A DNA stretch of 64,000 nucleotides from Halomonas ventosae. GTDB taxonomy: Bacteria > Pseudomonadota > Gammaproteobacteria > Pseudomonadales > Halomonadaceae. Below the pieces are notes generated by a model. It did no database searches, was not told where the DNA came from, and was given only the letters and a program-made list of their open reading frames with translations. Below are positions 30,452 through 44,069 of this stretch, piece after piece; position 1 is the stretch's first letter, and every line of letters starts with the position of its first letter. The stretch is from assembly GCF_004363555.1 (NCBI RefSeq), contig NZ_SNZJ01000026.1, forward strand, positions 1-64,000, written 5' to 3'. Both the position numbers and the translations under genes were made by a program.

Positions 30452-31417
30452 TCAGCCGTCGAGGGGAGTCGGGTTCTCGCCGAAGTCGGCATGGTCGCCC
30501 AGGCGACGGCCGTCGATCTCGTCCCCGTAGAACCCATGGTGGTTGTGGAAGATCTCGTCGGTCTCGTCCACGGACTCCAGGGTGCGGCGCCGCGGGTCCT
30601 GGGGCCGTTCGTGGCTGTTGATGAAGGCCGCCACGTCCCAGGCCTGCTGGTCGGAGAGCGAGTAGGGCTTGCCCAGCGGCATGTTGGCCTTGATGAAGTT
30701 GGCGGCGGTATTCACCCGGTGCATGCCGGCGCCCCAGTTGTAGGCCCCGTCGCCCCACAGCGGCGGGAAGACCTGTCGCTCGCCGACCTTCTGGCCCTGG
30801 CCCTCCTCACCGTGGCAGACCGCGCACTGCTGGGCATACACCTCGGCACCGCGCTCGCGGTCGGCGCCCTGCTCGGTCTCCTCGAGCTTGGGATAGCCGC
30901 GACCCGGCATCGACTCGTTGATCGGCGCGCCAGTGGCCATCCAGTGCAGGTAGGTCTGCATGGCGACCAGCGGCTCGCTGCCGTACTCCGGCGGCTTGCC
31001 GTTCATGGAGTAGGTGAAGCAGCCCTGGATGCGCTCGGCCAGGGTATTGACCTTGTCGTTCTTGCCCCGATAGGCCGGGTAGACGCCGAAGGAGGCCCAC
31101 ATCGGCGCCGAGTTGGCGAGCCGGCCGGCATCGAGGTGGCAGTTCGCGCAGTTCTGGTCGTTGAAGACGTACTCGCCGCGCAGTGCCTGGGTGTTGACGA
31201 AGAGGTCGCGGCCCTTGCGCACCATCTCCCCGTACTGGTTGTCGGGGATGTCGCGCTCGTGGGGTGGCTGGAAGGTGATCTCGCCCTCGGGAGCCTCGGG
31301 CAACGGGACCTGGTAGTCGCGCTCGGTCGCGTCGTCCTGGGCAACCGCGGCCAGGGAGAGGCTCAGGGCCGAGGCCAGGGTGCCGGCGATCAGCAGGTGG
31401 GATGTGCGCTGGTTCAT
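30452..31417 (-). CDS. tsdA: TsdA-like dihaem thiosulfate dehydrogenase
   Basis: 321-residue exported dihaem cytochrome c. Signal peptide about 1-27; haem motifs Cys90-Ala-Asn-Cys-His94 and Cys198-Ala-Val-Cys-His202. Cys133 in GCFTYSMNGK matches the unusual haem-ligating cysteine of TsdA enzymes, next to VAMQTYLHWMATGAP. TsdA oxidises two thiosulfates to tetrathionate in the periplasm. It is overlapped 4 bases by tsdB upstream and ends the operon regulator-kinase-tsdB-tsdA. SoxA-like function is less likely because of the Cys-ligand and SMNGK context. Confidence 0.85.
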   Translation of the reverse strand: MNQRTSHLLIAGTLASALSLSLAAVAQDDATERDYQVPLPEAPEGEITFQPPHERDIPDNQYGEMVRKGRDLFVNTQALRGEYVFNDQNCANCHLDAGRLANSAPMWASFGVYPAYRGKNDKVNTLAERIQGCFTYSMNGKPPEYGSEPLVAMQTYLHWMATGAPINESMPGRGYPKLEETEQGADRERGAEVYAQQCAVCHGEEGQGQKVGERQVFPPLWGDGAYNWGAGMHRVNTAANFIKANMPLGKPYSLSDQQAWDVAAFINSHERPQDPRRRTLESVDETDEIFHNHHGFYGDEIDGRRLGDHADFGENPTPLDG

Positions 31418-32109
31418 TGACCGTCCTCCTCTTGCGCCCGGGTCTCTCGCTCGGCGATGCGCTCCGGCAGGGTGGCGTAGTAGTCGGCGATCATCGCGAC
31501 CTGCTCCTCGTCGAGCCGCTCGGCGATGCCCACCATCAGGTCGTTGGGGTCGTTGTGGCGCTTGCCGTCGCGCCACGCCTCGAGCTGGCTGACGATATAG
31601 CCCGCGTGCTGGCCCGCCAGCGGCGGGAAGGTGGCGCCGACGCCCTGGCCATTGGGGCCGTGGCACTGGCTGCAGGCCGGGATCATCTTGCCCTCGGCCC
31701 AGTCACCGCGCTCGGCCAGCCACTCGGCCTCGTCGGTCGGATCGGCGGCACGGTAGGCAGTGGGCAGTTCCGGCCAGGGCTCCATCTCGGCGTAGTAGAC
31801 CGCCACATCGGCGATCTGCTGGTCGTCCAGCATGTTGGCAAAGGCCATCATGGTGGCACTCTCGCGCCGTCCTTCCTTGATGTCATGCAGCTGCTTGGCG
31901 ATGTACTCCGCCGGCAGCCCCGCCAGGCGCGGCCAGGACTCGCCCTGGGGGTTGTTCATGCCCATGCCGTCGGCCTGGTGGCAGGCCACGCAGGCACCGG
32001 CCGCCTGCTGGCCGCGCTCGGCATCGCCCTCCAGGGCCTGGGCCTGACCGGCGGCCAGGCCCAGGCCCAGCAGCAGGCCGAGCCCGCTCGCGATCCTCAT
32101 GCTCGTCAT
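31414..32109 (-). CDS. tsdB: TsdB-like dihaem cytochrome c4, electron acceptor
   Basis: 231-residue exported cytochrome c4-type protein. Signal peptide about 1-25; haem motifs Cys40-Val-Ala-Cys-His44 and Cys146-Ser-Gln-Cys-His150, with YIAKQL and YIVSQLEAWRDGKR repeated around each haem. In tsdBA organisms such a c4 accepts electrons from TsdA and passes them to oxidase. It overlaps both the kinase gene (4 bases) and tsdA (4 bases), so all three are translationally coupled. Confidence 0.85.
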   Translation of the reverse strand: MTSMRIASGLGLLLGLGLAAGQAQALEGDAERGQQAAGACVACHQADGMGMNNPQGESWPRLAGLPAEYIAKQLHDIKEGRRESATMMAFANMLDDQQIADVAVYYAEMEPWPELPTAYRAADPTDEAEWLAERGDWAEGKMIPACSQCHGPNGQGVGATFPPLAGQHAGYIVSQLEAWRDGKRHNDPNDLMVGIAERLDEEQVAMIADYYATLPERIAERETRAQEEDGQ

Positions 32110-34383: not shown

Positions 34384-34812
34384 TCATCCCCTGGCAGGGA
34401 TCGCCCGGGCCAGGAACCAGCCGGCCACCATGGCCACCAGCATGGCGAGAAGCGGGCCGGTGAGCCCGGCGATGGACGCGAAGGCCGGTCCCGGGCAGTA
34501 GCCGGAGAGGCCCCAGCCGATGCCGAACAGCGCGGCTCCGCCGATCAGGCGACCGTCGATGTCCTGACGGGTGGGCAGCTGGAAGCGCTCGCCGAACACC
34601 GGGTTGGGGCGACGCAGCACCAGCCGGTAGCCGATGAAGTTGGTGATCACGGCGCCGCCCAGCACGAACATCAGCGTCGGGTCCCAGGCCCCGGCGACAT
34701 CCAGGAAGCCCAGCACCCGGGCCGGGTCGGTCATGCCGGAAATGGCCAGGCCGAGACCGAAGATCAGCCCCGCGACATAGCCCATGATCGTCTTCAGGGT
34801 CTCGGTCTTCAT
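34384..34812 (-). CDS. YeeE/YedE-family half-transporter, C-terminal type
   Basis: 142-residue membrane protein with about four hydrophobic helices and the Cys motif GLSGYCPGPA. YeeE/YedE proteins import thiosulfate or other sulfur compounds through conserved cysteines. Here the fold is split in two genes: this one starts inside the stop of the next (overlap 4 bases), so the pair probably forms one channel. The ATG at 34810-34812 gives MKTETLKTIMGY. Confidence 0.88.
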   Translation of the reverse strand: MKTETLKTIMGYVAGLIFGLGLAISGMTDPARVLGFLDVAGAWDPTLMFVLGGAVITNFIGYRLVLRRPNPVFGERFQLPTRQDIDGRLIGGAALFGIGWGLSGYCPGPAFASIAGLTGPLLAMLVAMVAGWFLARAIPARG

Positions 34813-35270
34813 GCACCACCTCCGATCACGTGCCGGACCACGAACACGGTGACGATCGCCGCCACCAGGAAGGTCACGGTAGCCACCATCGAGCGCACCG
34901 AGAGTCGGGAGAGGCCGCAGACGCCATGGCCGCTGGTGCAACCGCTACCCAGGCCCGTGCCCAGGCCGACCAGCAGGCCGGCGACGAGCATCAGCGGCAC
35001 GCCGCCGGCGGGCTCGCCGATCACCTCGCCCGGGGCGCCGGCCACGTTGCCGAGCCCGCCACCGGCCAGCAGCACCAGCACGGGGCCGCTGACCAGCCCC
35101 AGCACGAAGGCCAGGCGCCAGGCGCTGTCCCCCTGGGGCCGGGCGGTGACCAGGGTGCCGATGATCCCGCTGATGCCGGCGATGCGGCCCAGGGTGGCCA
35201 TCAGCCAGGTGGCCGAGAGGCCGATCAGCACACCGCCGATCAGCCCCTGAAGGCTTGCCGTCCAATCCAC
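34809..35270 (-). CDS. YeeE/YedE-family half-transporter, N-terminal type
   Basis: 153-residue membrane protein with about four helices and the signature GCTSGHGVCGLSRLSVRS, which holds the sulfur-relaying cysteines. It forms a pair with the downstream gene. Located between a SulP permease and the tsd operon, it probably brings in thiosulfate or sulfane sulfur; the substrate is inferred from family and neighbours. Confidence 0.88.
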   Translation of the reverse strand: MDWTASLQGLIGGVLIGLSATWLMATLGRIAGISGIIGTLVTARPQGDSAWRLAFVLGLVSGPVLVLLAGGGLGNVAGAPGEVIGEPAGGVPLMLVAGLLVGLGTGLGSGCTSGHGVCGLSRLSVRSMVATVTFLVAAIVTVFVVRHVIGGGA

Positions 35271-35383: not shown

Positions 35384-37147
35384 CTACTTGCTGGCTGCCA
35401 GCCCGGCCTCGCCGCAGACGCGGTCCGAGACCGCGTCGACATTGTCGCGCAAGGCCCGCCAGGCGTCATAGGTGCTCAGGAACACCCTGCCGGTCAGCTC
35501 ATGGCAGAATTCCGTATGCTGCAGCCGATCCATCACCGGCCCCTTGACCTCGGCCAGGTGCAGGGTGACGGCGGAGTCCTTGAGCCGCGCATTGATCGCC
35601 TCCAGGCTCTCCAGCGCCGAGGCATCGATGACGTTCACCGCCTGGCAGGCCAGCACGATGTGCTCGAGGCCCGGCTGGCGGGCCGCCAGCGCCATCACGG
35701 TGTCCTCCAGATAGCGGGCATTGGCGAAGTAGAGGCTCTCGTCGACCCGCAGGATGGCGATCCGCTCGTCGGTCTCGACCTCGTGGCGCCGCACGTTGCG
35801 AAAGTGCTCGCTGCCGGGCACCCGCCCCACCACCGCGCTGTGCGGGCGGCTGGTGCGATACAGGTGAAGGCCGAGCGACAGACCCACGCCGACCAGGATC
35901 CCGCTCTCCACGCCATGGGCCAGGGTCAGCACCAGGGTGGCCAGCATGGCCACGCCATCGGCCCGGGAATAGGCCCAGGTGCGCCGAATGGCGGGCAGGT
36001 CGATCAGGGTGCCCACCGCGACGATGATCGTGGCGGCAAGCGTCGCCTTGGGCAGGAAAGCCAGGGGCGTGGTCAGCGCCAGCGTGGCCACGGCGATGCC
36101 CAGGGCGGTGAAGGCGCCAGCGAGAGGCGTGGCGGCACCGGCCTCGAAGTTGACCACCGACCGGGAGAAACCGCCGGATACCGGCGAGCCGCCGCTGGTG
36201 CCCGCCCCGATATTGGCGAGCCCCATGGCGATCAGCTCCTGGTTGGGGTCGATCCGCTGGCGCCGCTTGGCGGCCAGGGTCTGGGCCACCGAGACCGACT
36301 CGACGAAGCCCACCAGGCTGATCAGCACCGCCGCCGGCAGCAGGCTCGACCACAGCTCGGGATCCAGGCTCGGCAGGGCCAGGGAAGGCAGGCCGCTGGG
36401 CACCTCGCCGACCAGGGCGACACCCTGCTGGCCGAGGCCCAGCCCCCAGGCCAGCAGGGTGGTGGCGACCACCGCCGAGACCGGCGCGGCCTTTGCCACC
36501 AGGTCGGCGACCGTTGCCGACAGCCCCAGGCGCCTCAGGCCGCCCTTCAGATGGCGTCGGCACAGCAGCAGGTAGCCCCAGACACCGAGCCCGATCGCCA
36601 GTGTGATGACGTTGGTGTCCGCAAGCCCCGCGACCAGCGCCGAGCCCATCTCCACCAGGTTGTGGCCGGACGCTTCCACGCCCAGCACGTGTCTCAGCTG
36701 GCTGGCGGCGATCAGGATGCCCGAGGCGGTGACAAAGCCCGAGATCACCGGGTGACTGAGGAAATTGGCGAGGAACCCCAGGCGCAGCACCCCCATGGTC
36801 ACCAGGACCAGGCCGGAGAGGGCCGCCAGCACCAGGGCCGCCCCGACGTACTCCGCACTGCCGGGAGTGGCGATGCCGGAGAGCGCCGAGGCGGTCATCA
36901 GCGAGGCCACCGCCACCGGCCCCACCGCCAGGGTGGCGCTGGTGCCGAAGAGGGCATAGAGCACCAGCGGCAGCATGCTGGCGTAGAGCCCCACTTCCGG
37001 CGGCAGGCCGGCCAGCAGGGCATAGGCCAGCGCCTGGGGCACCAGCATCAGGGTGACGATCACCGCCGCCACCAGGTCACGCGCCAGCACATCGCGCCGG
37101 TAGCCGTGCAGCCAGCCGATCAGGGGAATCCAGCGTGAAGGGATCAT
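35384..37147 (-). CDS. SulP-family anion (sulfate-type) permease with STAS domain
   Basis: 587 residues. A membrane domain of 10-14 helices (SulP blocks MLVPQALAYALLAGLPPEVGLYAS-type start, and GSPVSGGFSRSVVNFEAGA) is followed by a C-terminal STAS domain from about 440 (DERIAILRVDESLYFANA, VNVIDASALESLEAI). Family members carry sulfate, bicarbonate or other anions. In this sulfur island sulfate or sulfite export or uptake is plausible. 30 bases separate its start from the SQR gene on the same strand. Confidence 0.9.
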   Translation of the reverse strand: MIPSRWIPLIGWLHGYRRDVLARDLVAAVIVTLMLVPQALAYALLAGLPPEVGLYASMLPLVLYALFGTSATLAVGPVAVASLMTASALSGIATPGSAEYVGAALVLAALSGLVLVTMGVLRLGFLANFLSHPVISGFVTASGILIAASQLRHVLGVEASGHNLVEMGSALVAGLADTNVITLAIGLGVWGYLLLCRRHLKGGLRRLGLSATVADLVAKAAPVSAVVATTLLAWGLGLGQQGVALVGEVPSGLPSLALPSLDPELWSSLLPAAVLISLVGFVESVSVAQTLAAKRRQRIDPNQELIAMGLANIGAGTSGGSPVSGGFSRSVVNFEAGAATPLAGAFTALGIAVATLALTTPLAFLPKATLAATIIVAVGTLIDLPAIRRTWAYSRADGVAMLATLVLTLAHGVESGILVGVGLSLGLHLYRTSRPHSAVVGRVPGSEHFRNVRRHEVETDERIAILRVDESLYFANARYLEDTVMALAARQPGLEHIVLACQAVNVIDASALESLEAINARLKDSAVTLHLAEVKGPVMDRLQHTEFCHELTGRVFLSTYDAWRALRDNVDAVSDRVCGEAGLAASK

Positions 37148-37177: not shown

Positions 37178-38431
37178 TCAGTGACGTCGCGCCGGTCGGG
37201 CCAGCCACTCGTGTCCCTTGAGCATGCCGTTCCAGTAGAGCCAGGGCAGCTGCTTGGCCTTGAGCCACCAGGCCCGGCGAGTCGCCCGGGTGCCCTCGTT
37301 GACCCAGCGCGGGAAGGTCGGCTGCAGGGCGCCACCATAGCCGAACTCGGCCAGCACGATGCGCCCTCGCTCCACGGTCAGCGGGCAGGAGCCATAGCCC
37401 AGGTAGGCCGCCGACAACGGTGTCGCGTCCAGGGTGGCCAGCAGGTTCTCGGCCACCACCGGCGCCTGCTTGCGCACCGCCGCCGCGGTCTTGGCATTGG
37501 CCGTACCGCTGGCGTCGCCCAGGCCGAACACCGCCGGGTAATGGGCGTGCTGCAGCGTCTCGGGATCGAGGTCCAGCCAGCCACCGGCATTGGCGAGCCC
37601 CGATTCGGCAATGAAGGCCGGGGCCTTCTGGGGCGGCACCGCATGCAGCATGTCGAAGGGGCGCTCCGCGGTGCGCTCCCCGTCCTCGCCGGATACGACG
37701 AACCGTGCCGTGCGCGATGGGCCATCCACGGCCACCAGGCGATGACCGAAGGCCTTCTCGATGCCGTAGCGCGTGATGTAGCCCTCGAGGGCCGGCACAT
37801 AGTCCGCCACGCCGAACAGCGCTTCCCCGGCGTTGCAGAAGCTCACCTCGATCCCGTCCAGGCGCCCCCGGCGATGCCAGTGGTCGCAGGAGAGGTACAT
37901 GGCCTTCTGCGGGGCACCGGCGCACTTGATCGGCATCGGCGGCTGAGTGAACAGCGCCCGGCCCTTCTCCAGCGACTGCACCAGCGACCAGGTGTAGGGC
38001 GCCAGGTCGAAACGGTAGTTGGAGGTCACGCCGTTCTGGCCCAGCGTCTGCTCCAGCCCCTCGATCGCGCCCCAGTCGATGACCAGTCCGGGCGCCACCA
38101 CCAGCCGGGAATAGCCGAGGCGCCGGCCATCGGCCAGCACCACCTCGCCGCCTTGCGGGTCGACGCGTTCGGCGCCGACCGCATACCAGCTGGCCCTGTC
38201 GGGAATCACATCGCCCATGGGACGGCGAGTAATGGCGGCCGGGAATACCCCGCCGCCCACCAGGGTCCAGCCAGGCTGGTAGCTGTGCGTCTCGGCAGGG
38301 TCGACGATGGCGATGTCCAGGTCGCCGCGGCGCTTCAGCAGGCTCGCGGTGACTGCGATGCCCGCCGCGCCGCCGCCGATGACGACGACATCATGATGAC
38401 GGGACGAACTCTCGGGGGTCGGGTGGTGCAT
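37178..38431 (-). CDS. sqr: sulfide:quinone oxidoreductase, type II (SQOR-like)
   Basis: 417-residue FAD protein. The dinucleotide fold is VVVIGGGAAGIAV (about 15-27). Catalytic cysteines sit in IKCAGAPQK (Cys170) and GYGSCPL (Cys349), motifs shared with mitochondrial SQOR, as are ETLQHAHYPAVFGLGD and LPWLYWNGMLKG near the membrane-facing C-terminus. It oxidises sulfide to sulfane sulfur (persulfide) and reduces quinone at the inner membrane. The persulfide-dioxygenase-type genes just upstream fit the next step. Downstream 30 bases is the SulP permease. Confidence 0.9.
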   Translation of the reverse strand: MHHPTPESSSRHHDVVVIGGGAAGIAVTASLLKRRGDLDIAIVDPAETHSYQPGWTLVGGGVFPAAITRRPMGDVIPDRASWYAVGAERVDPQGGEVVLADGRRLGYSRLVVAPGLVIDWGAIEGLEQTLGQNGVTSNYRFDLAPYTWSLVQSLEKGRALFTQPPMPIKCAGAPQKAMYLSCDHWHRRGRLDGIEVSFCNAGEALFGVADYVPALEGYITRYGIEKAFGHRLVAVDGPSRTARFVVSGEDGERTAERPFDMLHAVPPQKAPAFIAESGLANAGGWLDLDPETLQHAHYPAVFGLGDASGTANAKTAAAVRKQAPVVAENLLATLDATPLSAAYLGYGSCPLTVERGRIVLAEFGYGGALQPTFPRWVNEGTRATRRAWWLKAKQLPWLYWNGMLKGHEWLARPARRH

Positions 38432-38479: not shown

Positions 38480-38899
38480 TCAGTTCTCGAGCATCTCGCG
38501 GATCGGCTGCGGATCATGGCCGGCCTTGTGGGCCGCGGCCAGCAGCGCCGGGATATCGCAGCCGGCCTCCCGGGAGCGGGCATGGGCCCAGAGGTGCACG
38601 GCCCGCTTGCCGGTCCTGCAAAAGGCGAGGATGGGAGTGGGCAAGCCGTCGAGGGCCTGGCCGAAGGCCGTGATGTCGGCCTCCGAGTATTCGCCCGGGG
38701 TGACCGGGATAGAGCGCCATTCAAGGCCCAGCTCGGCGGCTCGGGCACTCAGGGCGCGGTCGTCGGGGTGGTCCTCGGCCTCGCCGGGACGGCGGTTGCA
38801 GATCACCGAGCGGAAGCCGCGGCGGGCGACCTCGTCAAGATCGGCGGGCGTCACGGCATCGGTGATGGCGAAGCCGGGTTCGAGTTCATGGATCTGCAT
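38480..38899 (-). CDS. DUF442 / TIGR01244-type phosphatase-like sulfur protein
   Basis: 139-residue cytoplasmic protein with a dual-specificity-phosphatase-like loop FCRTGKRA (Cys94, Arg99), also seen in the front domain of Blh (beta-lactamase-like hydrolase fusion) proteins. In sulfur-oxidising clusters it accompanies persulfide dioxygenase and SQR and may act as a sulfurtransferase. Here it is separate and lies 41 bases after the first dioxygenase gene. Whether the Cys handles phosphate or sulfane sulfur is unknown. Confidence 0.85.
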   Translation of the reverse strand: MQIHELEPGFAITDAVTPADLDEVARRGFRSVICNRRPGEAEDHPDDRALSARAAELGLEWRSIPVTPGEYSEADITAFGQALDGLPTPILAFCRTGKRAVHLWAHARSREAGCDIPALLAAAHKAGHDPQPIREMLEN

Positions 38900-38940: not shown

Positions 38941-39810
38941 TCAGAACTTGTTGATCGGCACCTTGAGGTAGACCTGGCCGTTATCCTCGGCCGGCGGCAT
39001 ATGGCCGGCGCGCATGTTGACCTGCACCGAGGGCAGGATCAGCCGGGGCATGTCCAGGGTCGCGTCGCGCTCGGTCCGCATCTTCACGAACGCCTCCTCG
39101 CTGACGCCTTCGTGGACATGGACGTTGTGGGCGCGCTGCTCTGCCACGCTGGTCTCGTGCTGGTACTCCTCGCGCTCCGGCGCCTTGTAGTCGTGGCACA
39201 GGAAGAGGCGCGTCTCGCCCGGCAGCGCCAGCACCTTCTGGATGGAGCGATAGAGGGTGCGGGCGTCACCGCCCGGGAAGTCGCAGCGGGCGGTGCCGTA
39301 ATCGGGCATGAACAGGGTATCGCCGACGAAGGCGGCATCGCCGATCACGTAGGTCAGGCAGGCCGGGGTGTGACCCGGGGTGTGCAGCACCCGCCCCTCC
39401 AGGTTGCCGATGGTGAAGGTGTTACCCTCCTCGAAGAGGCGGTCGAACTGGCTGCCGTCACGGGCGAACTCGGGGCCGGCATTGAAGGCCTTGCCGAAAA
39501 CGTCCTGCACCACGGTGATGTTGGCGCCGATGCCGGTCAGCCCGCCCAGCCTCTCGTGCAGGTAGGGCGCGGCAGAGAGGTGGTCGGCGTGGACGTGGGT
39601 CTCGAGGATCCACGCCACCTCGAGGCCGTTGTCACGCACGAAGGCGATGATCTCGTCGGCGGAGCGCACGTCGGTGCGGCCGGCGGCGTAATCGAAGTCG
39701 AGCACCGAATCGAGGATCGCACACGCCTTGCTGTCGGGATCCTGCACCACGTAGCTGAAGGTGTTGGTGGGCTCGTCGAAGAAGTGGGTCACGCTTGGCT
39801 GCTGGGACAT
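38941..39810 (-). CDS. persulfide-dioxygenase-type metallo-beta-lactamase (copy 1)
   Basis: 289-residue MBL-fold protein. Metal ligands THVHADHLS (His72, His74, Asp76, His77), LHTPGHTP, and GDTLFMPDYGTARCDFPGGDA typical of ETHE1/PDO and Blh proteins. Such enzymes oxidise glutathione persulfide to sulfite. It is the first gene of a set ending with SQR, SulP and YeeE. The 161-base upstream gap contains an AT-rich stretch at 39856-39905 that may be the promoter. Confidence 0.88.
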   Translation of the reverse strand: MSQQPSVTHFFDEPTNTFSYVVQDPDSKACAILDSVLDFDYAAGRTDVRSADEIIAFVRDNGLEVAWILETHVHADHLSAAPYLHERLGGLTGIGANITVVQDVFGKAFNAGPEFARDGSQFDRLFEEGNTFTIGNLEGRVLHTPGHTPACLTYVIGDAAFVGDTLFMPDYGTARCDFPGGDARTLYRSIQKVLALPGETRLFLCHDYKAPEREEYQHETSVAEQRAHNVHVHEGVSEEAFVKMRTERDATLDMPRLILPSVQVNMRAGHMPPAEDNGQVYLKVPINKF

Positions 39811-39934
39811 GGGGAACGACCTCCATCGAATGTCACTGGCCGGGTGGTGAGGTCAGCTTATCGCAATCAAAGTTCTAAGAATAGATTATTTTGCTATATA
39901 TAACCGGCGATGGATGACATCCCTGCCATCCGGG

Positions 39935-39960
39935 AGGCCCGTCGCCGCGGCGACGGGCCT
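39935..39960. terminator. 26-base perfect palindrome between the two MBL genes
   Basis: AGGCCCGTCGCCG followed immediately by its complement, no spacer. It begins 12 bases past the stop of the second MBL gene (minus strand). There is no T run. It could be a terminator stem or an operator; the position favours a terminator. Confidence 0.55.
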
Positions 39961-39971
39961 GTTGCAGGCAG

Positions 39972-40883
39972 TCATTCCCAGGCGGCGCCTTCCAGGGCAT
40001 CCAGCGGGATCTTCAGGTAGCGCTTGCCGTTGGCCTCGGGCTCCGGGAGTCGACCGCCCAGGGTATTCACCTGCAGGGAGTGCAGGATCAGCTTGGGCAT
40101 CGGCAGCTCGCTGTCGCGCTCATCGCGCATTGCCGCGTAGTCATCCTCGGTGACGCCGCCGGCCAGGTGCTTGTTGGTCTCGCGCTGCTCGCGCACCGTG
40201 CTCTCCCACTGCGGCTCGCGGCCGTCGGGCATGTAGTCGTGGCCGGTGAACAGCCGGGTCTCGTCGGGCAGCGCCAGGATGTCCTGGATGGACTGCCAGA
40301 GCTGGTGGGCATCGCCCCCCGGGAAGTCGGCCCGAGCAGTGCCGAAGTCCGGCTGGAAGATGGTGTCATGGACGAAGGCGGCATCGCCGATCATGTAGGT
40401 GATCGAGGCCAGGGTATGGCCCGGCGAGAACATTACCCGCACCTCCAGCTCGCCGATGGGGAACGCATCGCCCTCGGCGAACAGCCGATCCCATTGCGAG
40501 CCGTCCGCGGGGAAGTCGGGCCAGTGGTAGATCTCCTTCCACAGCTTCTGTACCTCGACCACCTTCTCGCCGATGGCGGTGGGGGCGCCTGTCTTCTCAC
40601 GCAGGTATTGCGCCGCCGAGAAGTGGTCGGCATGGGGATGGGTATCGAGAATCCACTGCACCTCGAGCCCCTGCTCCTTCACATAGGTCAGCAGCTCGTC
40701 GGCATGGTGGGTGGCGGTGGCCCCGGACTTCTCGTCGAAGTCATGGACCGGGTCGATGATCGCGCACTGGCGGGTCGCCGGGTCGCTCACCACGTATTGC
40801 ACGCTGAAGGTGCGCGGGTCGAAGAAACCGGCCACGTCGGGAGTGCCGGCACCACTGCTCGGGGAGAGGGCGAAGGTCTTCAT
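39972..40883 (-). CDS. persulfide-dioxygenase-type metallo-beta-lactamase (copy 2)
   Basis: 303-residue paralogue of the gene at 38941. Ligands DTHPHADHFS (His82, His84, Asp86, His87), FSPGHTLAS, GDAAFVHDTIFQPDFGTARADFPGGDA and a C-terminal RYLKIPLDALEG. It differs from copy 1 in having THPHAD and VHDTIF instead of VGDTLF, so metal or substrate preference may differ. It has its own upstream region (40884-41099) with the palindrome AGCACATTGTGCT at about 40947-40959. Confidence 0.85.
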   Translation of the reverse strand: MKTFALSPSSGAGTPDVAGFFDPRTFSVQYVVSDPATRQCAIIDPVHDFDEKSGATATHHADELLTYVKEQGLEVQWILDTHPHADHFSAAQYLREKTGAPTAIGEKVVEVQKLWKEIYHWPDFPADGSQWDRLFAEGDAFPIGELEVRVMFSPGHTLASITYMIGDAAFVHDTIFQPDFGTARADFPGGDAHQLWQSIQDILALPDETRLFTGHDYMPDGREPQWESTVREQRETNKHLAGGVTEDDYAAMRDERDSELPMPKLILHSLQVNTLGGRLPEPEANGKRYLKIPLDALEGAAWE

Positions 40884-41099
40884 GGGTCACCTCCTGATGG
40901 CGCCCGGCCTCGACCGGGCGGTGATTTCAAATTCGGGAATAAACTTAGCACATTGTGCTCTATACACCGATTGAGGCCGTGCATGGTCGCGATAGTTCCA
41001 GACTGCCCCGAAATCAACCTGCTCGCCCCCAACGCAAGGCGCCCGCAACCCGGAGGTCGCAGGCGCCTTGTGGAACACTACCGTCCCGAGCCGCGCTGC
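40884..41099. promoter_or_regulatory. intergenic region with palindrome and possible terminator
   Basis: 216 gene-free bases. A 13-base palindrome AGCACA-T-TGTGCT lies in an AT-rich patch at about 40947-40959, where the promoter of the second MBL gene would be. At 41035-41070, arms CAAGGCGCC / GGCGCCTTG flank an 18-base inner stem; this is probably the terminator of the DUF2892 gene. No T tract follows. Confidence 0.45.
41035..41070 (-). terminator. probable terminator of the DUF2892 gene
   Basis: 9-bp arms CAAGGCGCC and GGCGCCTTG, 30 bases past the stop at 41100, with further pairing inside. No clear T run on the minus strand, so strength is uncertain. Confidence 0.5.
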
Positions 41100-41291
41100 C
41101 TACTCGTTCGGCTTGCGGGTATTGATACCCAGCAGTTTCCAGGCCGGGCAGAAGTTGAACAGGCCGGTGGCCAGCGGCACCACGCCGATCCAGCCCCAGA
41201 CGCCGATGGTGCCGGTCAGGGCCAGCAGGATCAGCACGGCCCCGACCACGATACGGGCCATCTTGTCGATACCGCCCACGTTGCTCTTCAT
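41100..41291 (-). CDS. DUF2892 (YgaP-like) small inner-membrane protein
   Basis: 63 residues, two hydrophobic segments (ARIVVGAVLILLALTGTIGVW and WIGVVPLATGLFNFCP), the hallmark VGGIDKMARIVVGA start and FNFCPAWKLLGI end of DUF2892. The same domain anchors the rhodanese YgaP in E. coli. The gene neighbours a DsrE-like and a rhodanese gene, so it may be the membrane part of a sulfur relay. Single conserved Cys in NFCPAWK. Confidence 0.82.
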   Translation of the reverse strand: MKSNVGGIDKMARIVVGAVLILLALTGTIGVWGWIGVVPLATGLFNFCPAWKLLGINTRKPNE

Positions 41292-41320
41292 GACGGACTC
41301 CTTGGGTTCGCTTCGGACGC

Positions 41321-41815
41321 TCAGAAGCTGTAAACGGGGATGGACGGGTCGCGCATCATCTCGGCCATCGGACCGGGAGCGGCCACGCCGACGCCCTCGC
41401 GCAGGTTGTCCTCGCCCAGATCGCTGTTGGGCAGATAGATCGCGCAGACATCCACCTGGGCGCCCTTCTCCATCAACATCTGCAGGATACCTTCCGGCTT
41501 GACCTGGCCAGCCGGATTGCTCGGGGGCGTGTTGATCGCCTCGGCACTTTCATAGCCCTCGACGGCCAGGTGGCCGGCGGCGTCGCAGAGCAGGATATGC
41601 AGGTCGGTGCCCTGCTGCTGCATGGCGTTGGAGAGGATCATCGCCATGCCCTGGGTCTGCAGTGAATCGCTGGTCAGGATCACCAGTGCCTTGTCGTCCA
41701 TGGCCTTGCCGCCCTCGGCCTCGCCCCCGTGGCTGTCGGCCATGGCGGCAGCGGAGAGGCCGAGGACGGCAGCGGCGGCGGCGGCGGCCAGGGTCAGTGT
41801 CTTCGTGATGGTCAT
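41321..41815 (-). CDS. exported DsrE-like protein
   Basis: 164 residues. Signal peptide about 1-26 (Ala-rich, cleavage after SAAAMA), then a DsrE/F-fold-like domain with Cys77 (LLCDAAGH) and Cys124 (VDVCAIYLPN); the latter occupies the sulfur-carrying position of DsrE-family proteins. Normal DsrE proteins are cytoplasmic, so a periplasmic version is notable. Cotranscription with the rhodanese (70-base gap) is likely. A role as a sulfane-sulfur carrier is inference. Confidence 0.78.
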   Translation of the reverse strand: MTITKTLTLAAAAAAAVLGLSAAAMADSHGGEAEGGKAMDDKALVILTSDSLQTQGMAMILSNAMQQQGTDLHILLCDAAGHLAVEGYESAEAINTPPSNPAGQVKPEGILQMLMEKGAQVDVCAIYLPNSDLGEDNLREGVGVAAPGPMAEMMRDPSIPVYSF

Positions 41816-41885
41816 GTGTTCACCTTGTCGTTTCGTTCGGGATGGCAGGCTTCACCCTGACGGGCCGGAGGCCTGCTGATGGCAT

Positions 41886-42473
41886 TCACTCCGCCGGGCG
41901 CCAGGCGACGTCGGGGTCGATCTCGTAGCTCCAGGGCAGCCCGGAATTGCGCCAGCCATTGACCGCCCTCACGCCCCTGGAATCGCCCTCCTCGAGCTTG
42001 CCGCCCTCGAAGCCATCGGTCACCGAGTAGACCTGGCTGAAGCCCATCTCGGCGATCAGGTCGGCAGCCGGTGCGCTGCGGGTGGAACCGGAGCGGCACA
42101 TGACGATGATCGGGTCGTCCTCGCCCATCTCCAGGGCCTCCAGCTCGGCGCGCACCTGGGCCTCGAAGTCGGCATTCCTGACCATCGGCCAGCTCTTCGC
42201 CTCCTCGTCGAAGTTGTCACGGTCGGCCAGCACCCAGGGCACGTGGATATCGGTGGGCTCGGCGAAGCCGGTGAACTTGATCTCGATGGGGTCGCGCACG
42301 TCGACCAGCACGGCCCGGTCGTTCTCCTGCATCAGTTCATGGGCCTCGCTCGCCGTGACGTAGAGCCCCAGTTGGGTCTCCCGGTAGGCGGGAACCTCTT
42401 CCTCGGCCAGTGCCGGGGCGGCAACCAGAGTCGCCGCCAGCAGGGAACCAACCAGCAGGTGCGTCATTTTCAT
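41886..42473 (-). CDS. exported rhodanese-domain sulfurtransferase
   Basis: 195 residues with a signal peptide (MKMTHLLVGSLLAATLVAAPALA) and a rhodanese domain: VLVDVRDPIEIKFTGF and active Cys126 in the loop CRSGSTRS, followed by a GFSQVYSVTDGFEGG block. The family moves sulfane sulfur (for example from thiosulfate). GAGGG lies about 10 bases before the ATG at 42471-42473. It probably leads the small set rhodanese, DsrE-like, DUF2892. An FNR-like site lies upstream at 42563-42576. Confidence 0.88.
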   Translation of the reverse strand: MKMTHLLVGSLLAATLVAAPALAEEEVPAYRETQLGLYVTASEAHELMQENDRAVLVDVRDPIEIKFTGFAEPTDIHVPWVLADRDNFDEEAKSWPMVRNADFEAQVRAELEALEMGEDDPIIVMCRSGSTRSAPAADLIAEMGFSQVYSVTDGFEGGKLEEGDSRGVRAVNGWRNSGLPWSYEIDPDVAWRPAE

Positions 42474-42562
42474 AACAAAACCCTCTAAGCAAATAACTTT
42501 TTCCTTTAGCACTGAAGTCTAGTCCAATGCCGCATCGTCTGCATGAGGCATCTGGACGCACC

Positions 42563-42576
42563 TTGATTCAGGTCAA
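42563..42576. promoter_or_regulatory. FNR/Anr-like site upstream of the exported rhodanese
   Basis: TTGAT-TCAG-GTCAA matches the FNR consensus TTGAT-N4-ATCAA at 9 of 10 fixed positions and lies 90 bases before the rhodanese start. It suggests oxygen-responsive expression of this part of the sulfur island, if functional. Confidence 0.45.
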
Positions 42577-42659
42577 CGTGGCGGGAGCAAGGAGGACAAT
42601 GGGCAGCCGGAGGAGACCATCAGGGTGAGCCAGCGAAGCGCATCGCTGGGCGGGCCCGC

Positions 42660-44069
42660 TCAGAGCTCGATACGGTCACCGTAGGCGGGAATCTCGGCAT
42701 CGATGTCGCTCTCGGCCAGCGCCGCCTGCAGCGCCAGCTGGGCCCCGGGCTCGCCGTGCACCAGGTAGAAGCGGGGGCGGTTGCGGAAGGCCCCGGCCCA
42801 GCCCAGCAGCTGGGTCTGGCCGGCATGGGCCGAGAAACCGCCGATGGTGTGGACCTTCGCCTTTACCGCCAGCTCCCGGCCCATGACGCGGATCCGCTCG
42901 GCGCCGTCGACGATCTGGCGCCCCACCGTGCCCGCGGCCTGGAAGCCCACGATCACCAGCCGGGTATCGGGCTTCTCCAGGTTGTAGCGGAAGTGGTGGA
43001 TGATGCGCCCGCCGTTGCACATCCCGGCCCCGGCGATGATGATCGCCCCGCCGTGGATGCGGTTGATGGCCATGGACTCCTCCACCGTGCGGGTCATGCG
43101 CAGGATCGGCAGGTACTGGCTGGTATCGCCGCTGGCCGCCACGTTGAGCACCTTGAGGTCCTCGGGATCCAGCGACTTGCGTGCCCGGTGGTAGAGCTCG
43201 GTGACCTTGATCGCCATGGGGCTGTCCAGGAACACCATCTGCTGGCGTAGCCGCCCCTCGTGGTAGAGCACGCTCAGGTGATAGAGGATCTCCTGGGTAC
43301 GCCCCACGGCGAAGGCGGGAATCAGCACGTTGCCGCCGGCGGCATGGGCCTCCTCCAGCACGCGGGCGAACTCCTCGAGGGTCTCCTCCAGCGGTCGATG
43401 GTCGCGGTCGCCATAGGTGCTCTCCATCAGCACCAGGTCGGCGTCATAGAGCTTCTCGGGATCCTTCATCAGCACCGAGCTGGAATTGCCCAGGTCCCCC
43501 GAGAAGACCAGCCGCTTCGTCTGCTCTCCGGAGGGTAAGGCCAGCTCGACGATGGCCGACCCGAGGATGTGGCCGGCGTCGCGGAACACCAGGCTGGCCC
43601 CGCCGGGCAGTTCGACCGGCTGGCCATAGGGGTGGGACTCGCAGAGCGCCAGGGTCTGTTCCACGTCCTCCAGCGCGTAGAGCGGTTCGACCAGCGGCTT
43701 GCCGTTGCGCTTGCGCCACTTGTTCTCCCACTCGACGTCCTTGGCCATGATGAAGGCGGCGTCCTGGAGCATGATCTCCAGCAGGTCGCGGGTGCCCCGT
43801 GTGCAGTGGATCGGCCCACGATATCCCTCCCGCACCAGCTTGGGCAGCAGCCCCGAATGGTCGAGATGGCCATGGGAGAGCACCACCGCCTCGAGCTCCC
43901 GAGGCAGGCTTCCGAAGGACCTGGCGTTGGCCTCGTCGGCGTCGCTACCGCCCTGATGCAGGCCACACTCCAGCAGCAGCTTGTGCGAGCGGCCATTGCC
44001 GTCCAGTTCGATGAGATAGCGCGACCCGGTGACCTCCTTGACCGCGCCCTGGAAGGTGAGTGTCGACAT
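42660..44069 (-). CDS. beta-CASP metallo-beta-lactamase (RNA processing type)
   Basis: 469-residue protein of the CPSF73-like class. MBL motif 2 is SHGHLDHSG, and DAGHILGSAIVEL, LVFSGDLGNSSS, MESTYGDRDH and the C-terminal beta-CASP motifs (IPAFAVGRTQEILY, AGAGMCNGGRI, HTIGGFSAHAGQ) are present. Such proteins are exo/endonucleases on RNA, but the substrate in bacteria is often unknown. The ATG at 44067-44069 gives MSTLTFQGAVKEVTGS. It has no obvious link to the sulfur genes. Confidence 0.9.
   Translation of the reverse strand: MSTLTFQGAVKEVTGSRYLIELDGNGRSHKLLLECGLHQGGSDADEANARSFGSLPRELEAVVLSHGHLDHSGLLPKLVREGYRGPIHCTRGTRDLLEIMLQDAAFIMAKDVEWENKWRKRNGKPLVEPLYALEDVEQTLALCESHPYGQPVELPGGASLVFRDAGHILGSAIVELALPSGEQTKRLVFSGDLGNSSSVLMKDPEKLYDADLVLMESTYGDRDHRPLEETLEEFARVLEEAHAAGGNVLIPAFAVGRTQEILYHLSVLYHEGRLRQQMVFLDSPMAIKVTELYHRARKSLDPEDLKVLNVAASGDTSQYLPILRMTRTVEESMAINRIHGGAIIIAGAGMCNGGRIIHHFRYNLEKPDTRLVIVGFQAAGTVGRQIVDGAERIRVMGRELAVKAKVHTIGGFSAHAGQTQLLGWAGAFRNRPRFYLVHGEPGAQLALQAALAESDIDAEIPAYGDRIEL

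Follow-up and report, generated by a model that had tools for sequence, protein, structure and literature searches.

A rhodanese and a protein of predicted DsrE fold, both probably exported, are encoded side by side in Halomonas ventosae, and the evidence leans modestly towards their forming a periplasmic module for the transfer of sulfane sulfur, with the PmpA/PmpB transporter pair as its likely acceptor in this genome. The window, that is, the whole stretch of 64,000 nucleotides that was analysed, is part of contig C26 of a 4.02 Mb genome in 49 contigs, whose nearest named relatives, among the best 80 of 135, are Halomonas. The first-pass annotation had placed three genes here, and their presence is confirmed by their coordinates and, for the first and the third, by Pfam. 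In 5' to 3' order along the minus strand they are:

41889-42473, minus strand: putatively exported single-domain rhodanese, 195 aa, read from an ATG (stop codon at 41886-41888), with Cys126 in CRSGSTRS (PF00581, E 4.9e-9)
41321-41815, minus strand: putatively exported DsrE-fold protein, 164 aa, with invariant Cys77 and Cys124 (AlphaFold2 fold; superposition on YchN, TusD and DsrE; alignment of 41 sequences)
41100-41291, minus strand: DUF2892/YgaP-like transmembrane protein, 63 aa (PF11127, E 8e-23)

The rhodanese and DsrE-like genes travel together. Of 151 genomes in the family, 25 carry the DsrE-like gene, as do 13 of 369 in a sample of the class and 11 of 398 in a sample of the phylum, the window genome being counted in each. 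A close rhodanese, defined by at least 56% identity and E < 1e-60, occurs in 18 of the 151 family genomes; weaker matches were excluded, such as the short fragment and the broken gene seen in one genome (G051). Both genes are present in 17 of these genomes, the rhodanese alone in 1, the DsrE-like gene alone in 8 and neither in 125, which gives a Fisher p of 1.5e-15 that is overstated because the 151 genomes are related. Given this co-occurrence and the adjacency of the two genes in 14 of the 17 genomes, where 61 to 160 bp separate them, their grouping is not due to chance. The 8 of 25 DsrE-bearing genomes that have no close rhodanese nevertheless count against the proposed module. Among named relatives, the best 80 of 135 were kept, and 71 of these loci extend 1.5 kb or more beyond the gene in each direction; a rhodanese gene lies within 1.5 kb of the DsrE-like gene on the same strand in 36 of the 71, and within 6 kb on either strand in 41. 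Rhodanese and DUF2892 genes both accompany the DsrE-like gene in 19 of the 71 loci.

Both proteins were initially credited with signal peptides, and this part of the annotation stands: each N-terminus begins with charged residues, and a hydrophobic core and an Ala-x-Ala-type site follow. Export was called in related loci by a crude, home-made rule that looks for a hydrophobic core and an Ala-x-Ala-type site, and this rule returned 43 of 43 rhodaneses and 77 of 79 DsrE-like proteins. Applied to families taken as cytoplasmic, it called 0 of 26 copies of the first persulfide dioxygenase (PDO), 6 of 40 of the second, 1 of 28 DUF442 proteins and 4 of 27 beta-CASP proteins. The rule is imperfect: it also called 10 of 11 SQRs, owing to their hydrophobic FAD-binding N-terminus. 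With a stricter threshold, 41 of 44 rhodaneses and 74 of 89 DsrE-like proteins are called exported. Two DsrE-like copies (L100 and L113) have no clear signal peptide by eye, which weighs against the module; elsewhere, signal-peptide-like N-termini in nearly all relatives indicate that both proteins are probably exported.

The rhodanese scores 37 bits against PF00581, for which the curated cutoff is 22.2, and its active-site loop, Cys126-Arg-Ser-Gly, is invariant in an alignment of 26 sequences. It is the single copy of its type among ten rhodanese-domain matches in the genome. The solved relatives nearest to it by sequence are 2fsx, 8w14 from Acinetobacter, 1qxn (the Sud protein of Wolinella) and GlpE, the similarity to Sud being weak (E 4.3e-7). 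A structure model of the rhodanese was set aside, as its pLDDT of 66 is too poor for detail. A second exported-looking type, a two-domain sulfurtransferase of 312 aa that matches PF00581 twice, lies beside the DsrE-like gene in two genomes of the class sample (L216 and L217), the only two among the 112 DsrE loci searched in which it is present. That the DsrE-like gene should stand next to two different types of exported-looking rhodanese favours the proposed module. Fusions of the two proteins were also sought: the open frames reported reach at most 284 aa, except for a seemingly spurious long frame of 1015 aa in G724 that runs into the DsrE frame. Export had been presented as the unusual feature of this rhodanese, a view that has to be given up. 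Precedents for exported rhodaneses exist in PspE, in Wolinella Sud and in an exported Acidithiobacillus rhodanese, and export as such is not unusual in this group. Periplasmic rhodaneses are also listed for cable bacteria in the accessible portion of PMC13047784.

The relationship of the second protein to DsrE is borne out by its predicted fold and not by family models. At a Pfam limit of E 5 (where filters drop most matches above 0.1), PF02635 gave no match to it, and the single match was a chance one to PepSY_2 (E 0.45); NCBIfam gave none at E 1 or below. Across the whole genome, PF02635 matched two adjacent genes only (C1:204524-205308), the window gene not being among them, and phmmer against the PDB gave one chance-level match (E 0.34). 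Sequence profiles give no proof of kinship to DsrE, and this counts against the module. The AlphaFold2 model, built from an alignment of 41 sequences from the window and the named genomes, has a mean pLDDT of 85.6, with ten-residue blocks from residue 41 onward at 90 to 98. VIA-align superposes it on E. coli YchN with a Z of 15.1 (113 residues, 1.9 A), on TusD with 13.2 and on DsrE with 12.8; the top ten rows, which also include SSO1126 and Swol_2425, span Z 12.8 to 15.1, and the next row falls to 5.7. An intermediate relative, L215, reaches 19.3 bits with PF02635, just below the cutoff of 22.7. Since the predicted fold superposes, PF02635 is unmatched and L215 lies just under the cutoff, the protein is, as modelled, a divergent DsrE-fold protein that stands outside PF02635 by threshold.

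Sulfur transfer had been proposed to run between rhodanese Cys126 and Cys124 of the DsrE-like protein. Both residues are invariant in their respective alignments, but a second invariant cysteine, Cys77, had been overlooked. Cys77 (in LLCD) and Cys124 (in V-x-V-C) are retained in all 41 DsrE-like sequences, which are 42 to 92% identical to the window protein; in the model they directly follow strands 71-76 and 120-123, respectively. Alignment by hhalign with 30 TusD sequences placed Cys124 on TusD Cys78, a non-significant result (E 0.066), and a global run aligned five residues only. Cys124 probably occupies the catalytic cysteine position of TusD and DsrE. The predicted DsrE fold and the two invariant cysteines are among the points in favour of the module.

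DUF2892 is, as first described, a separate gene beside the pair (80.8 bits with PF11127, Pfam cutoff 25.3), encoding 63 aa and not fused to a rhodanese domain as in YgaP. Its membership of the module does not hold in general, as it lies within 1.5 kb of the DsrE-like gene on the same strand in only 39 of the 71 loci. Among 47 adjacent DUF2892 copies that were read, 39 have two tail cysteines and 8 have one. The window copy (41100-41291) is of the latter kind, with an arginine at the place of the second cysteine near the C-terminus. In view of its patchy occurrence and of the missing cysteine in the window copy, DUF2892 is best regarded as a neighbour in the membrane that the module can do without.

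After a gap of 216 bp, the minus strand continues from DUF2892 into a run of sulfur genes, in which a two-component system stands between the transporter halves and tsdB-tsdA:

39972-40883, minus strand: persulfide-dioxygenase-like metallo-beta-lactamase 1 (PF00753; dioxygenase half, 140-423, of the Blh model NF040641, 562.7 bits, below the whole-protein cutoff of 625)
38941-39810, minus strand: persulfide-dioxygenase-like metallo-beta-lactamase 2 (PF00753; dioxygenase half of NF040641, 401 bits, below the cutoff of 625)
38480-38899, minus strand: DUF442/TIGR01244 sulfurtransferase-like protein (TIGR01244, 103 bits, above the cutoff of 85.85; PF04273)
37178-38431, minus strand: SQR-like flavoprotein (best NCBIfam model type III SQR, 166.7 bits, below the cutoff of 525)
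35384-37147, minus strand: SulP anion transporter with STAS domain (PF00916 and PF01740)
34809-35270, minus strand: PmpA/YedE1-type half of a YeeE transporter, a name that we assume from position and family (PF04143, E 0.001, 19.1 bits, below the cutoff of 27; NF052577 weak)
34384-34857, minus strand, start approximate: PmpB/YedE2-type half of a YeeE transporter, which we take to be PmpB (PF20398, E 6.8e-44)
31414-32109, minus strand: TsdB-like diheme cytochrome c (PF00034, PF13442; gene order)
30452-31417, minus strand: TsdA-like diheme cytochrome, thiosulfate dehydrogenase (PF21342 SoxA/TsdA domain, E 1.4e-11)

From this arrangement we infer a sequence of transfers. The rhodanese would load sulfane sulfur from thiosulfate or polysulfide onto Cys126 and hand it to Cys124 of the DsrE-fold protein, in which Cys77 would offer a second thiol; the PmpA/PmpB pair would be the likely acceptor in this genome and would pass the sulfur into the cytoplasm, where it would be available to the two persulfide dioxygenases and the DUF442 protein. 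SulP would transport the anion product, and DUF2892 would take no obligatory part. As the window carries PmpA/PmpB-type genes, two PDO-like genes and a DUF442 gene, a path from the rhodanese through the DsrE-fold protein to PmpAB would be the likeliest one here. Either TsdA or YeeE had been envisaged as the destination of the sulfur. TsdA joins two thiosulfates without any persulfide donor or carrier and is for that reason an unlikely acceptor. The YeeE alternative remains plausible in the form of PmpA/PmpB: according to the available text of PMC10812762, YedE1E2 of Cupriavidus, a pair 59% identical to PmpA and PmpB of Serratia, brings zero-valent sulfur into E. coli, and does so faster when a PDO consumes GSSH. 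PmpAB cannot be the sole acceptor, since PmpA lies within 10 kb of the DsrE-like gene in only 29 of 63 well-covered loci, a figure that tells against the proposed route as a general one.

The sulfur setting of the pair recurs beyond the window. In a set of 29 loci (L100-L118 and L131-L140), 15 carry, within 8.5 kb, a gene homologous to one of the window's sulfur genes, the rhodanese included. When the one Vreelandella locus (L111) is removed, leaving only copies outside the family, the count is 14 of 28, against 0 of 28 control regions (Fisher p 1.4e-5). The controls comprise 20 regions, each 16 kb long, of which 18 come from genomes that carry such loci, and eight more, in which one cytochrome bd gene and nothing else was found. 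On the opposite side of the balance, the rhodanese is the sole window-type gene in 4 of the 14 positive loci (L101, L105, L107 and L110), and the other 14 loci have no window sulfur gene within 8.5 kb. Among these negative loci, L100 has an octaheme cytochrome gene, L109 has DUF2892, and L134 and L137 have cytochrome bd; two strains of a single species account for L117 and L118, and the contigs of L114 and L115 are shorter than 6.2 kb. Eight strong DsrE-like matches come from the class-level sample: L215, L216 and L217 have clear sulfur or rhodanese neighbours, L221 has only a SLAC1/TDT-type transporter, and L214 (probably the same genome as L117), L218, L219 and L220 have no such neighbour. 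Four weaker matches from that sample (L222-L225) have no sulfur or rhodanese neighbour either. In L215 the order is pdo-pmpA-pmpB-sulP-dsrE-DUF442, with the ATG of dsrE overlapping the stop codon of sulP, so that the DsrE-like gene sits inside a cluster for import and oxidation. Three unrelated enzymes of thiosulfate or tetrathionate (TsdA, a TtrA-like protein and a TIGR04315-type octaheme cytochrome) are encoded near the DsrE-like gene in different genomes. Sulfane sulfur outside the inner membrane is the common thread of these neighbourhoods. The initial reading of the locus as a sulfur module is thereby upheld as to exported, carrier-type proteins that are paired genetically, with two types of rhodanese, near genes of sulfur oxidation; what changes is the role of DUF2892, the choice of acceptor and the weight given to export.

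A different function can be drawn from the same neighbourhoods, namely that the pair is a general periplasmic buffer against sulfane sulfur and sulfide stress, which would shield envelope thiols or electron-transport enzymes from polysulfide and deliver nothing to an importer. Such a role is conceivable though rather unlikely. Cytochrome bd resists sulfide, and in two loci (L103, from Neptunomonas, and L135) genes for cytochrome bd and for SQR relatives with a Tat-like motif (by eye) lie beside the DsrE-like gene; L139 has a Tat-type SQR without cytochrome bd, and L134 and L137 have cytochrome bd alone. No Tat motif was seen in the SQR-like flavoprotein of the window, which is the sole match in its genome to the Tat-bearing SQR relative of L103. 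The 34 of 63 well-covered loci in which PmpA is not near would also suit a buffer. Against it, L215 and many Halomonas loci place the DsrE-like gene within clusters for import and oxidation.

It is less probable still that the pair is an accessory of tetrathionate or thiosulfate respiration, handling sulfane sulfur freed around TsdA, TtrABC or the octaheme cytochrome much as Sud does for polysulfide reductase. In the Vreelandella locus L054, TtrB-, NrfD- and TtrA-like genes follow the trio, with TtrA about 2.3 kb behind it; the TtrA-like protein scores 1297 bits against a cutoff of 1750, and the TtrB-like protein 402 against 416. A TtrA-like gene stands at the same spacing in L053, L055 and L058, where TtrA was the only gene checked, and farther off in L059, L060, L070 and L073. 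In L041 the gene directly behind the trio encodes an octaheme cytochrome, and such a gene is found within 1.7 kb of the DsrE-like gene in eight more loci (L098, L100, L102, L104, L107, L131, L195 and L196, the last with the gene split across two frames); the one copy scanned, from L100, scores 627 with TIGR04315 (cutoff 375). TsdA is present in 19 of the 100 loci scanned. However, 63 of the 100, some of them short and some duplicates, have none of the three enzymes, and to our knowledge the TsdA, Ttr and octaheme cytochrome enzymes need no carrier in vitro. Finally, that the neighbourhoods reflect a response to arsenic or another oxyanion, and not sulfur oxidation, is scarcely credible: an ACR3/bile-acid-symporter-like transporter (by eye) is present in 11 of 112 DsrE loci, some of them duplicates, and an ArsR-type regulator in 10 of 112 (confirmed by Pfam in L098), against 0 of 28 controls in both cases, but arsenic resistance is too rare a theme among these loci, sulfur genes are the more frequent neighbours, and ArsR regulators also sense sulfane sulfur (BigR, SqrR).

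The preferred reading, a periplasmic transfer module, has relatives among known systems. Sud (1qxn) and PspE are likewise exported single-domain rhodaneses; Sud passes polysulfide sulfur to a respiratory enzyme, and we know of no DsrE-fold partner for either protein. DsrE-fold carriers are known from cytoplasmic relays. The predicted fold of the window protein is that of TusD, DsrE and YchN (PF02635; Z 12.8 to 15.1), and its Cys124 probably sits where their catalytic cysteine does. It differs from them in that it looks exported, is unmatched by PF02635, has the invariant Cys77 and does not belong to a TusBCD or DsrEFH gene set; the TusD of the window genome lacks a cysteine where strand 2 ends (by eye). 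The Rhd-TusA-DsrE carriers of the hdr cluster in Acidithiobacillus and others resemble the window pair in that a rhodanese and a DsrE-superfamily protein are encoded with sulfur-oxidation genes (PMC2754497, available part). By contrast, the rhodanese and TusA of that system are cytoplasmic and its DsrE is at the inner membrane, feeding Hdr (PMC2754497, available part), while both window proteins have signal-peptide-like N-termini by the crude rule; the hdr-cluster DsrE also belongs to a different sequence family. With YedE1E2/PmpAB and PDO the window has in common the clustering of YeeE half-genes with PDO genes; the available text of PMC10812762 notes rhodanese genes near yedE genes, and contains no mention that we found of an exported rhodanese or a DsrE partner.

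On a wider view, two kinds of exported rhodanese may charge an unrecognised exported DsrE-fold family, unmatched by Pfam and NCBIfam models, which then passes sulfur to an acceptor that depends on the lineage; as an undescribed periplasmic relay, this is put forward tentatively, the chances being somewhat against it. The acceptors may include the PmpAB importer with PDO, a Tat-exported SQR and tetrathionate-type respiratory enzymes. No description of an exported DsrE-fold family paired with exported rhodaneses was found in the literature searched, which lacks most subscription papers, and neither rhodanese nor DsrE occurs in the accessible part of PMC8014003. If true, the relay would be an extracytoplasmic counterpart of the Rhd-TusA-DsrE relay. 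A conserved exported family of this kind would reveal the way in which persulfide is dealt with outside the inner membrane by heterotrophic sulfur oxidisers such as Halomonas, Vreelandella and Marinobacter. PmpAB, the importer of zero-valent sulfur, would gain a candidate donor, and the link from thiosulfate and tetrathionate chemistry to cytoplasmic PDO would become testable in tractable strains.

Several further observations concern the locus and its relatives. The tsdBA block of the window is preceded by a regulator and followed by dsbG and rib genes, an order that matches the Halomonas arrangement described in the available part of PMC9237845. That text describes one rhodanese gene as special to H. 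titanicae SOB56 and also mentions a DsrMKJOP/DsrEFH cluster, and no mention of the exported rhodanese/DsrE pair was found in it. In L054 (10981-16055), the TtrB-like protein also scores above the cutoff of the DsrO model (234.8 against 200). By analogy, the 'DsrMKJOP without DsrAB' of strain SOB56 (PMC9237845, available part) may be a Ttr-like cluster of the kind seen in L054.

The two PDO-like genes of the window (38941-40883) form a tandem of divergent copies, and the DUF442 half of Blh is a separate gene; some relatives have no DUF442 gene or have only one of the PDOs. A promoter and terminator scan of 40800-42700 gave no promoter-like site and one terminator-like stem, not above shuffled sequences. 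The perfect palindrome AGCACAATGTGCT at about 40947-40959, 5' of the first PDO gene, was rejected as an operator, its core recurring in 1 of the 80 named loci, at a different place. In L134 (8182-8682) and L137 (8467-8967), a 167-aa protein with a hydrophobic N-terminus is encoded directly after the DsrE-like gene and adjoining the cytochrome bd genes; for the L134 copy, Pfam gave no match at E 1e-4. In L098, L195 and L197, the last being likely the same genome as L098, the surroundings of the DsrE-like gene include a regulator of the ArsR type, a gene that by eye is ACR3/bile-acid-symporter-like, and a gene for an octaheme cytochrome. A canonical DsrE protein in L222 (5641-6081) resembles the window protein in its family and its signal-peptide-like N-terminus, and differs in matching PF02635 (E 2.1e-12) and in its CPMC motif; no homologue of either rhodanese type was found in its locus. 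Its counterpart in L223 (7792-8232) is of the same exported-looking, CPMC-bearing DsrE type.
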